Made by a program: the position numbers and the translations under genes
The notes under the pieces: model-generated
Database searches by the model: none
What the model saw: the letters and a program-made list of their open reading frames with translations, nothing else
What the model was told of the DNA's origin: nothing
In this document: piece after piece, positions 7,346 to 11,100 of the stretch
Layout: each line of letters opens with the position of its first letter
Position numbering within the stretch: position 1 is the stretch's first letter
NCBI GenBank assembly: GCA_022801435.1
Contig: JAAWSG010000006.1
Span: 1 to 61,606, forward strand
Direction of reading: 5' to 3'
Source of the DNA: Lawsonibacter sp.
GTDB lineage: Bacteria; Bacillota; Clostridia; Oscillospirales; Oscillospiraceae
Length of the DNA stretch: 61,606 nucleotides

Positions 7346-7603
7346 ATGGAACTCATCAACATCGGCTTTGGCAGCCTGGTGTCCGCCCGGCGGCTGGTGG
7401 CGGCGGTCAGTCCCGACTCCGCCCCCATCAAGCGCATGGTGCAGGAGGCCCGGGATCGGGGCATCCTGATTGACGCCACCTACGGCCGCCGCACCCAGGC
7501 GGTCCTGATTATGGATAACGACCATTTGATTCTGTCCGCCCTGACCACCGGAGAGATCGCGCTCCGCCTGGAGGGGGGACGGGGAGAGGAGGAACAGCCT
7601 TGA
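7346..7603 (+). CDS. remA: RemA-family DNA-binding regulator (DUF370)
   Basis: 85-residue protein [20 protein letters not shown], matching RemA/YlzA. In B. subtilis RemA forms a ring that wraps DNA and activates matrix and osmoprotection genes. Position between yicC and gmk is conserved even in non-biofilm Clostridia. The conserved [17 protein letters not shown] segment with its arginines is intact. The tail after about residue 72 is acidic and specific to this lineage. The gmk start overlaps its stop. Confidence 0.93.
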
Positions 7604-8211
7604 TCCAGAGGAAACAACGGGGACAGCTTATTGTTCTGTCCGGGCCCTCGGGGGTGGGCAAGAGCACGGTCATCGCTGAGCTGCTCAGCCAGCGCAGGGA
7701 CATCTACTTCTCGGTCTCCTACACCACCCGGCAGCCCCGCGTGGGGGAGCAGGACGGGGTGAACTACAACTTCGTCAGCCGGGAGGCCTTTGAAGCCATG
7801 ATTGCCGGGGGGGAGCTGCTGGAGTTCGCCGAGTATGTGGGCAATTACTACGGGACCTCTCTGAAAGCGATCCAGGAGAAGCGGGACGCGGGGGTGGACG
7901 TGCTGCTGGACATCGAGGTCCAGGGGGCGGCCAAGGTGCGGGCCCGGTGTCCGGACGCCCTGTTCCTCTTCATCATCCCCCCTTCCTTTGAGGAGCTGTC
8001 CCGCCGCCTCCACCGGAGGAATACGGACAGCGAGGAGGTCATTGCGGGCCGGCTGGAGAAGGCCAAGGTGGAATTCCGGGAAATCCCCAACTACGACTAC
8101 CTGGTTATCAACGACAAGGTGTCGGAGGCGGTGGAGCGCATCCAGGCCATCCTCACCGCGGCCCAGTGCCAGGTGGACAGCTGGAAGGAATTTTTGGCCC
8201 AGTTCGACTGA
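7600..8211 (+). CDS. gmk: guanylate kinase
   Basis: Phosphorylates GMP to GDP. 203 residues with the P-loop GPSGVGKST (about 14-22), the GMP-binding segment [13 protein letters not shown], and the YVGNYYGT and DIEVQGA motifs. The start is a TTG at 7600 overlapping the remA stop, with the ribosome site ggagagga about 7 bases upstream; no ATG exists near the expected N-terminus. Length is normal for the family. Confidence 0.93.
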
Positions 8212-8243
8212 GCCGCCGGGGAACCCTTTTGGAGCCCGCGGCC

Positions 8244-8336
8244 TGTGGAAAAATACCGGGATTTGTGGAAAAGTCCCTGGATTTTGTGGATAACCCGCCC
8301 TGATCCGGTGGAAAAGCCCGTGATTTTTGTGGAAAA
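8244..8336 (+). repeat. phased array of five DnaA-box-like 9-mers between gmk and rpoZ
   Basis: TGTGGAAAA (8244), TGTGGAAAA (8264), TGTGGATAA (8285), GGTGGAAAA (8307) and TGTGGAAAA (8328) lie in one orientation at steps of 20, 21, 22 and 21 bp, about two helical turns. Read on the minus strand they are TTTTCCACA or TTATCCACA: four fit the DnaA-box consensus TTWTNCACA exactly and one has a single mismatch. A weaker TGTTGAAAA follows at 8340. DnaA binding is inferred; it could also be the operator of another protein or a decayed tandem repeat. Confidence 0.6.
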
Positions 8337-8379
8337 CCATGTTGAAAACTTGAAGTTTTGAGGTAAGGAGAGATTTGTT

Positions 8380-8586
8380 ATGATGCTCTATCCCGCTATG
8401 AAGGACCTGCTGGACAAGGTGCCCAGCCGCTATGAGCTGGTGAATGTGGTGGCCTGCCGGGCCCGCAGCATCGCCAGAGAGGCCGAGATTGAGGGGCAAC
8501 CCCTCCAGGAGAAGCCGGTCAGCATCGCCATCCAGGAGGTGGCTGAGGGACGGCTGGAACGGACGCAGACGGAGCAAGCGGAATAA
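8380..8586 (+). CDS. rpoZ: RNA polymerase omega subunit
   Basis: 68 residues, MMLYPAMKDLLDKVPSRYEL then NVVACRARSIAREAE and VSIAIQEVAEG, matching the short Firmicutes omega subunit that helps assemble RNA polymerase and bind its beta-prime tail. Start ATG 8380 has AGGAG nine bases upstream; the second ATG (8383) is less well placed. Unlike its neighbours it is separated from gmk by 168 bases that hold the 9-mer array, so it may have its own control. Confidence 0.9.
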   Translation: MMLYPAMKDLLDKVPSRYELVNVVACRARSIAREAEIEGQPLQEKPVSIAIQEVAEGRLERTQTEQAE

Positions 8587-8631
8587 GGACAGGGGGGCTC
8601 AGCTCCCTGCATTTTTATGGAGGGGACGGCC

Positions 8632-11100
8632 TTGGGACGGATCATTGCAAAGGTGGCGGTGGCCAGAGCGGTGTACACCATCGACCGGCCCTATGACTAT
8701 CTGGTGGGGGAGGAGCTGGCCCGGCGGCTCCGGCCCGGTATGCGGGTGCTGGTCCCCTTCGGGGCGGGCAATCGGGGCTCGGACGGCATGGTGCTCTCCA
8801 TCCGGGAGGAGGGGATGACTGGTCCCGTCCTGAAGGAGATCCTCGCCCCCCTGGATGAGGAGCCGGTGCTCTCCCCAAAGGCCATCCAGCTGGCCCTCTG
8901 GATGCGGGAGCGGTACTTCTGCACGGTCTACGACTGCGTGAAGGCCATGCTCCCCGCCGGACTGTACTTCTCTCTGCGGGACCGGGTGGTGCTGGAGCAG
9001 GGGCTGGACCGGGAGGACGCCCTCCGCTTGGCGGGGGACCTGCCCGCCGCCGGGGAACTGCTGGACATGCTGTGGAGCTGGGGCGGCGAGGGGGACATGG
9101 AGCAGATCCGCCTGGCCTTCGGGGGCCGGAACCCCAACCCCGCCATCCGCCGGCTGACCGAGTCGGGGGCGGCCCGGCTGGAGACCGACGCCCATCGGAA
9201 GGTGGGGAACAAGCGGGAGCGGCTGGCGGTGCTGGCCATCCCGGCGGAGGACGCCATGGCTCTGGTGACCCCCCGGAGGAAGTCCGCCCCCCTGCACTAC
9301 GCGGTGGTGGAGCTGCTGTGTACCCTGGGGGCGGCCTCCGCCAAGGAGCTGTGCTATTTCACCGGGGCCTCCTCCGCCACCCTGCGGGCCCTGGAAAAAA
9401 AGGGCATCCTGTCTATGGAGCAGCAGGAGGTTCTGCATCGGGTGAGCCTGGAGGAGGTGGAGCCCGCCCCCCCTCCGGTGCTCAACGGGGAGCAGGAGGA
9501 TGCGTTTCAGGGGCTGGACCAGCTGGCCCGGTCAGGAAAACCCGCCGCCGCCCTGCTGTACGGGGTGACGGGGAGCGGAAAGACCCAGGTCTACATCCGC
9601 CTGATCTGGTCGGCGCTGGAGCGGGGCAGGACCGCCCTGGTGCTGGTCCCAGAGATCGTCCTCACCCCCCAGCTGCTGCGGAGCTTCGCCGCCCAGTTCG
9701 GGAAGCAGGTGGCGGTGCTCCACAGCTCCCTCCGGGCGGGGGAGCGGTACAACGAGTGGAAGCGGGCCCTGCGGGGGGAAGCCAGAGTGGTCATCGGGAC
9801 CCGCTCCGCGGTATTCGCCCCCCTGGAGGACATCGGCCTCATCATCCTGGACGAGGAGCAGGAGGGGAGCTACAAGTCGGAAAATTCCCCCCGCTACCAT
9901 GCCCGGGAGGTGGCAAAATACCGCTGCGTGCAGCACAGCGCCCTCCTGGTGCTGGGCTCGGCCACCCCGTCTGTGGAGAGCATGTACCAGGCTCAGGAGG
10001 GACAGATCGGCCTGTTCCACCTTAAAAACCGCTACAACCAAAAAAACCTGCCCCAGGTGCTGACGGTGGACATGAAGCAGGAGCTGCGCCAGGGCAACGA
10101 CACCTCCATCAGCGGGGTGCTCCGCCAGGAGCTTGCGGAAAACATGGAGCGGGGGGAACAGGCAATCCTCTTCCTCAACCGCCGGGGGGCCAGCCGGATG
10201 GTGAGCTGCGGCGAGTGCGGCCAGGTTCCGGAGTGCCCCCGGTGCTCGGTAAAATTGACCTACCACTCGGCCAACGGGCGGCTGATGTGCCACTACTGCG
10301 GGCACTCCCAGCCCCTGCCCCCGGCCTGCCCCAGCTGCGGCGGGCTGCTGAACTTCATCGGCACGGGGACCCAGCGGGTGGAGGAGGAGCTGCGGGAGCT
10401 GTTCCCCTGGGCCCAGGTGCTGCGGATGGACACGGACACGGTCTCCGCCGCCCACCCCCACGAGGAGCTGCTGGACCGCTTCCGCCGGGAGCGCATCCCC
10501 ATCCTGCTGGGGACCCAGATGGTGGCCAAGGGGCTGGATTTTGAGAACGTGACCCTGGTGGGGGTGCTGGCTCCCGACCTGTCCCTCTACGCGGACGACT
10601 TCCGGGCGGGGGAGCGGACCTTCTCCCTGCTGACCCAGGTGGTGGGCCGGGCGGGGCGGGGGTCGAAGCAGGGCCGGGCGGTGATTCAGACCTATACCCC
10701 GGAAAACGATGTCATTACCTGCGCCGCCCGGCAGGACTACGACAGCTTCTACGCCCAGGAGCTGGAGCTGCGCCGCCTGCGCTGTCTGCTCCCCTTCGCG
10801 GACATGACGGTGCTCACCGCCTCCGGGCTGGAGGAGGGGGGCGTGCTGCGCTGCTGTCTCCGCCTGCGCCAGGCGCTGGAGGCCGCCCTGCCCTCTCTGG
10901 GGGGGGAGTGGCAGCTGCTGGGACCCGCTCCGGCGGCGGTGGCCAAGGTGAACAACCGCTACCGCTACCGGCTCACCCTCATCGGGAGGGGGGGCAGGGA
11001 GTTCCGGGCGCTGCTGGCCCACCTGCTGCGGTGCGCCCACCGGGACAAGGAGAACAAAGGGGTGTCGGTCTATGGGGATGTGAACCCCTACTACAGCTGA
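8632..11100 (+). CDS. priA: primosomal replication restart helicase PriA
   Basis: Superfamily 2 helicase that reloads the replisome at stalled forks. The N-terminal DNA-binding domain is followed by the Walker A motif GVTGSGKTQ (about residue 310), the Walker B motif DEEQEG, a zinc-binding domain with four CxxC pairs (CGECGQVPECPRC, CHYCG, CPSCG, about 524-572) and the C-terminal helicase lobe. I prefer the TTG at 8632 because ggagggg (8619-8625) is ideally placed for it. An in-frame ATG at 8617 overlaps that site and would add five residues. About 822 aa. Confidence 0.93.
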   Translation: MGRIIAKVAVARAVYTIDRPYDYLVGEELARRLRPGMRVLVPFGAGNRGSDGMVLSIREEGMTGPVLKEILAPLDEEPVLSPKAIQLALWMRERYFCTVYDCVKAMLPAGLYFSLRDRVVLEQGLDREDALRLAGDLPAAGELLDMLWSWGGEGDMEQIRLAFGGRNPNPAIRRLTESGAARLETDAHRKVGNKRERLAVLAIPAEDAMALVTPRRKSAPLHYAVVELLCTLGAASAKELCYFTGASSATLRALEKKGILSMEQQEVLHRVSLEEVEPAPPPVLNGEQEDAFQGLDQLARSGKPAAALLYGVTGSGKTQVYIRLIWSALERGRTALVLVPEIVLTPQLLRSFAAQFGKQVAVLHSSLRAGERYNEWKRALRGEARVVIGTRSAVFAPLEDIGLIILDEEQEGSYKSENSPRYHAREVAKYRCVQHSALLVLGSATPSVESMYQAQEGQIGLFHLKNRYNQKNLPQVLTVDMKQELRQGNDTSISGVLRQELAENMERGEQAILFLNRRGASRMVSCGECGQVPECPRCSVKLTYHSANGRLMCHYCGHSQPLPPACPSCGGLLNFIGTGTQRVEEELRELFPWAQVLRMDTDTVSAAHPHEELLDRFRRERIPILLGTQMVAKGLDFENVTLVGVLAPDLSLYADDFRAGERTFSLLTQVVGRAGRGSKQGRAVIQTYTPENDVITCAARQDYDSFYAQELELRRLRCLLPFADMTVLTASGLEEGGVLRCCLRLRQALEAALPSLGGEWQLLGPAPAAVAKVNNRYRYRLTLIGRGGREFRALLAHLLRCAHRDKENKGVSVYGDVNPYYS

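Follow-up and report, generated by a model that had tools for sequence, protein, structure and literature searches.

The gap between gmk and rpoZ holds an array of DnaA-box-like sites that is, in our assessment, probably a genuine DnaA-binding cluster outside oriC, which is specific to its lineage, arose by tandem amplification and likely titrates DnaA while hindering read-through into rpoZ. Clusters of DnaA boxes outside oriC are a known kind of element, and the best reading of the gmk-rpoZ array is as a young, lineage-specific and new instance of this kind. No DnaA-box array between gmk and rpoZ was reported among the literature matches listed.

Six predicted DnaA boxes precede rpoZ

In the window (the whole stretch of DNA analysed, 61.6 kb), the array consists of TTWTCCACA-like 9-mers that all lie on the minus strand and are of the TGTGGAWAA type on the forward strand. 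The region comprises the following features:

7600..8211, plus strand: gmk, guanylate kinase, the upstream gene (PF00625)
8212..8379, plus strand: gmk-rpoZ gap with the array, 168 bp, the longest among the 62 same-genus gaps read
8244..8252, minus strand: predicted DnaA box 1, TTTTCCACA (forward-strand TGTGGAAAA)
8264..8272, minus strand: predicted DnaA box 2, TTTTCCACA (forward-strand TGTGGAAAA), 20 bp from box 1
8285..8293, minus strand: predicted DnaA box 3, TTATCCACA (forward-strand TGTGGATAA), 21 bp from box 2
8307..8315, minus strand: predicted DnaA box 4, TTTTCCACC (forward-strand GGTGGAAAA), one mismatch, 22 bp from box 3
8328..8336, minus strand: predicted DnaA box 5, TTTTCCACA (forward-strand TGTGGAAAA), 21 bp from box 4
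8340..8348, minus strand: predicted DnaA box 6, TTTTCAACA (forward-strand TGTTGAAAA), one mismatch, +12 bp from box 5
8380..8586, plus strand: rpoZ, RNA polymerase omega, the downstream gene (PF01192)
8590..8609, plus strand: terminator-like hairpin in the rpoZ/priA interval, from a consensus scan only
8617..11100, plus strand: priA, primosomal helicase, the next gene (PF17764, PF18074, PF18319)

The preliminary description had listed five 9-mers in one orientation, spaced 20, 21, 22 and 21 bp, with four of them matching TTWTNCACA. All five were found at their positions, and the scan confirmed the four matches and the mismatch in the fourth site; it also revealed box 6 at 8340, which had been missed. 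When up to two mismatches were allowed, the whole gap yielded six sites on a single strand and zero outside the array. The array lies 32-136 bp before the start of rpoZ, and priA is the next gene downstream.

The array is the largest exact cluster of the draft genome

TTWTNCACA was observed six times in the 61.6-kb window, whereas 0.80 were expected, and none of 100 shuffles reached six. Of 20,000 dinucleotide shuffles of the 168-bp gap, none contained three or more exact TGTGGAWAA sites on the array strand and one contained two, which excludes chance as the source of the sites; the units are not independent (see below), and therefore these shuffle odds overstate the surprise.

In the draft genome (2.45 Mb, 81% complete), exact TGTGGAWAA occurs 60 times compared to 25 for the reversed control, and the TGTTGAAAA 9-mer of box 6 occurs 15 times compared to six. 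A scan for equally dense clusters, whose abundance would by the preliminary description have spoken against the idea, returned few rather than many. Read from the match list, three places have at least two exact TGTGGAWAA sites inside 200 bp, and the array, with four in 93 bp, is the largest exact cluster of the draft genome. The second place (C49:14653-14683, in the mnmE cluster at C49:14645-14683) has three exact sites in 31 bp, tighter than the array but smaller; the third (C16:22493-22514) has two and belongs to a further cluster (C16:22493-22535) adjoining a peptidase U32 gene. The array holds three or more boxes per ~100 bp above chance, which is what marks a DnaA-box cluster.

The motif and part of the spacing agree with DnaA-box clusters of the genus

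That the sites resemble DnaA boxes, as first proposed, and that they are to be taken as DnaA boxes is well supported by sequence comparison. The DnaA of this genome has an ATPase, an N-terminal and a helix-turn-helix (Bac_DnaA_C) domain and matches PDB DnaA chains including 1j1v, and the motif and the 21-bp spacing recur at the dnaA and mnmE loci of the genus. The TTWTNCACA motif is also thought to be valid in C. difficile because the DnaA contact residues are kept (PMC7561715).

Across 64 same-genus genomes, we counted 136 same-strand pairs of exact boxes with 0-30 bp between them (three in the own genome), and the reversed control gave 0. Spacings of 9 bp (15 pairs), 12 bp (52) and 21 bp (49) make up 116/136 neighbouring same-strand pairs, again with 0 in the reversed control, and all others amount to 20; in the pair list each site seems to be matched with its closest partner, and 12+9 sets would therefore enter as their parts. 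Within the array, the 21-bp (twice) and 12-bp spacings are common in the genus and those of 20 and 22 bp are not, the 20-bp spacing being present once among the 136 pairs, namely in the array itself. Given the genus spacing, the mnmE, dnaA and tsaD loci and the DnaA of the own genome, the motif and geometry at gmk-rpoZ appear to be those of the DnaA clusters of the group, and the array is most likely bound by DnaA.

Pairs separated by N10-13 (19-22 bp) number 64 across the genus, of which two belong to the window and the other 62 to relatives or other loci. Among the 58 non-window pairs examined (L170-L227), 33 lie at mnmE (one labelled solely via its FAD-gene neighbour), 10 at dnaA (labelled by dnaA alone, with dnaN beside L207 judged by eye) and 15 elsewhere; the remaining four of the 62 are within dnaA loci. 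By coordinate, four of the 15 pairs elsewhere are at tsaD. One pair (L176) is near typA, L198 and L223 being similar in appearance, and the protein neighbouring L211 had no Pfam match at 1e-10. We also observed phased DnaA-box pairs inside mutL frames, between the two recognised domains of mutL, in two genomes (L195 and L202) and, by likeness, in a third (L205).

At tsaD, a pair is present up to 700 bp downstream in 14 of the 61 genomes with a tsaD match over the cut-off. A frame test identified tsaD in 25/30 loci, and 12 of these 25 have at least one exact box in the downstream bases read (up to 500, fewer in two loci). In the own genome, the 500 bp that follow tsaD are free of boxes.

A co-motif, ACATAAC or TTACATAA on either strand, occurs within 150 bp of 29/58 genus pairs and was noticed on visual inspection at mnmE, tsaD and elsewhere. 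Relative to a background of 0.005 per locus this is an about 100-fold enrichment, with a count inflated by the many orthologous loci. The co-motif is absent within about 200 bp of the gmk-rpoZ array and from the own mnmE cluster; the own U32 cluster (C16 near 22500, L088) has two.

A likely tandem repeat, confined to its lineage

The array has the look of a diverged tandem repeat, with a DnaA box as the basis of its ~21-bp unit. Its first four spacers are more alike than composition-shuffled spacers (2/3,000 shuffles were as good), and tandem repeat finder (TRF) reports 2.3 copies of 20 bp across 8244-8290. As the likeness of the units extends past the boxes into the spacers, the boxes do not count as independent of one another. 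A dispersed repeat was ruled out, as a 201-bp stretch searched against the own genome at E<=0.001 returned the self-match only.

Conservation between gmk and rpoZ in relatives, set by the preliminary description as a check, was not found: at genus level the array has no counterpart, with TTWTNCACA present in 0/61 gmk-rpoZ gaps. These gaps come from the 63 other genomes of the genus, 61 of which gave a readable gap (in G460 the gmk match extends to the end of the contig, and G476 is without a gmk match). The only one-mismatch site among the 61 gaps is a single one in L013. The gaps range from -4 to 162 bp, and in 16/61 the value is -4, with gmk and rpoZ overlapping. In a set of 80 named genomes that overlaps the genus set (Lawsonibacter, Pseudoflavonifractor, Flavonifractor and others), the array was not found in 79 gaps, and the 80th was unreadable.

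A genus-wide search with the gap gave, besides the window, short partial matches (best E 3.3e-4; at E<=1 in 58/64 genomes, the own one among them); several of these, to query positions 53-85, are mnmE clusters. Three phased boxes were found in 5/400 genomes of the family, own included; judged from ORFs, none of the other four has them at gmk-rpoZ. The best gmk identity among relatives is 85%, and with the nearest relative compared at this distance the array is possibly a recent gain.

By eye, the gaps of several relatives (L003, L005, L009, L010 and L019) hold other inverted repeats, of the CTGTAGGGGCGG type among others. The gmk-rpoZ gap therefore seems to tolerate insertions.

These observations bear on the main rival explanation, a neutral minisatellite, in which slippage within a permissive gap tandemly duplicated a stretch that happened to contain a DnaA box, so that DnaA may bind and nothing depends on the binding. 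We regard this as possible, if somewhat improbable. It would account for the lineage specificity, for the relatedness of the spacers with the TRF repeat at 8244-8290, and for the other inverted repeats in the gaps of relatives (L003, L009, L010, L019). However, the boxes have stayed at 9/9 or 8/9 while the spacers drifted, and box 6 stands at the genus spacing of 12 bp with a variant, TGTTGAAAA, that is present twice in the own dnaA-dnaN gap; at the distance of the relatives compared, both points are only suggestive.

Plasmid origins typically carry direct repeats about two turns apart, and the helically phased repeats of the array could in principle be iterons or a remnant left by a phage or mobile replicon. 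This origin is highly improbable and was rejected, as none of 72,556 plasmid or 50,697 phage records matched at E<=1. Furthermore, housekeeping genes flank the array on both sides, the window is collinear with the genome of a relative (G012) from about 2.3 to 18.9 kb, and a Pfam scan of six flanking proteins of the window gave no plasmid initiator. The likeness to plasmid iterons thus ends at the spacing of the direct repeats; unlike them, the array matches no plasmid record, and the flanking proteins scanned lack a replication-initiator domain. The remainder of the window showed no match to 80 kb of G012 except for one ORF at 59.6 kb.

The array probably lies on the terminus side

Contig C52 (118.7 kb) carries the own dnaA and contig C7 the array, so that the array is not beside dnaA/oriC. 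Because the own genome is a draft, the position of the array was inferred from three single-contig relatives, in which gmk is separated from dnaA by 43.3% (G011), 46.7% (G007) and 42.6% (G012) of the chromosome. The separate contig and these distances agree with the initial remark that the array is far from dnaA, and the array is probably terminus-side in the own genome as well. In the same relatives, tsaD is found at 15.5-19.3% of the chromosome from dnaA, and the mnmE cluster at 3.3% (G011) and 5.9% (G012). In G012, the GC skew sampled in 20 stretches reverses its sign within 1.47-1.615 Mb, close to gmk at 1.676 Mb; two samples (0.6 and 2.485 Mb, one on each side) run slightly against the trend.

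Transcription context and possible function

A search of 8100-8700 gave no promoter of the sigma-70 type, which is weak evidence because 0.2 are expected by chance. Terminator-like matches in this region number three compared to 0.5 expected; two are the hairpin at 8590-8609, and the third is a weak match at 8258-8277.

The weak match at 8258-8277 is the single point in favour of an RNA element (leader, riboswitch or attenuator) before rpoZ, an explanation to which we give next to no credence. It was rejected, given that Rfam has no match at E<=1 in 8100-8700 and that the folding of the gap is ordinary (z-score -0.83).

The array could alternatively be a transcription-control element, at which DnaA chiefly sets the expression of rpoZ, perhaps of priA, with little titration. 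This reading is compatible with that of a titrating cluster, and as the chief function we consider it unlikely. Its place 32-136 bp before rpoZ, with priA next, would suit such a role, and a terminus-side site (42.6-46.7% from dnaA in three relatives) is replicated late and ill-placed for titration after initiation. DnaA is moreover known to activate, and appears to repress, certain named genes of B. subtilis (PMC4447404). Against this stand the missing promoter-like site in 8100-8700 and the terminator-like hairpin at 8590-8609, which speaks against rpoZ and priA being controlled together in a simple way and makes an effect on priA doubtful. In addition, the 4-bp overlap of gmk and rpoZ in 16/61 relatives implies that rpoZ is expressed there without an intervening element. 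With no promoter found and the hairpin present, hindrance of read-through into rpoZ appears likelier than promoter control.

For the titrating, lineage-specific DnaA-binding cluster that we favour, the following course may be proposed. A ~21-bp unit of box plus spacer would have been tandemly amplified in this lineage within the gmk-rpoZ gap, which in relatives is often absent or occupied by other sequence. DnaA would load on boxes about two helical turns apart and, owing to this distance, would sit on a single face of the DNA. The array may then hold a few DnaA molecules, which amounts to titration, and abundant DnaA would hinder transcription from gmk into rpoZ. Judging from known DnaA biology, titration by the array would be a likely effect, and so would an action on local transcription. 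As a late-replicated site, the array would be a poor sink for DnaA after initiation. The lineage specificity, the related spacers, the unique 20-bp spacing and the missing co-motif all speak against a functional reading.

A wider proposal, which we hold to be distinctly doubtful, is that clusters outside oriC come and go between species while the strict 9/12/21-bp spacing code of the genus is kept. Here, the tsaD-side cluster would be missing, and a larger new one at gmk/rpoZ-priA near the terminus would tie late-replicated DNA and genes to the level of DnaA.

Relation to known DnaA-box clusters

With several DnaA boxes away from dnaA, the array resembles the B. subtilis clusters outside oriC (trmE, gcp/ydiF, ywlC, yydA, ywcI, yqeG/sda). 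The trmE (mnmE) and gcp (tsaD) regions are among the strongest DnaA-binding regions of B. subtilis in vitro (PMC4447404), and the trmE and gcp clusters have equivalents in the genus of the window at mnmE and, in part, at tsaD. Unlike the B. subtilis clusters, the window array is lineage-specific and probably terminus-side; neither rpoZ nor gmk is named in the main text of PMC4447404. Removal of six DnaA-box clusters from B. subtilis led to early initiation, for which DnaA holding was suggested (PMC5295017). The same review states that no clusters of significance for initiation control have been identified in B. subtilis, so that even the model clusters seem to have modest known roles.

The array is also comparable to E. 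coli datA, DARS1 and DARS2 as a chromosomal DnaA-box cluster outside oriC; these, however, act on the nucleotide state of DnaA with involvement of IHF and Fis. With the dnaA-dnaN gap of its own genus it shares the same 9-mer, the TGTTGAAAA variant (own genome) and 21-bp pairs (relatives), but it does not lie beside dnaA.

If DnaA binds, the array would offer a naturally occurring example of a recently formed DnaA-box cluster, from which it could be learned how clusters arise. It would then also raise the questions of whether a cluster on the terminus side acts unlike those on the origin side and whether the influence of DnaA extends to rpoZ or to priA, a gene of the primosome. The 9, 12 and 21 bp code together with the mnmE and tsaD clusters could serve as a simple set of DnaA-binding predictions for gut Oscillospiraceae.

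Peptidase U32 genes adjoin DnaA-box clusters in two genera (L052 in G339, and the own C16:22493-22535). In another genus (G301), independent phased exact boxes occur in or near a coding frame at L054 1477-1605, at 0, 12, 33, 54 and 78 bp.
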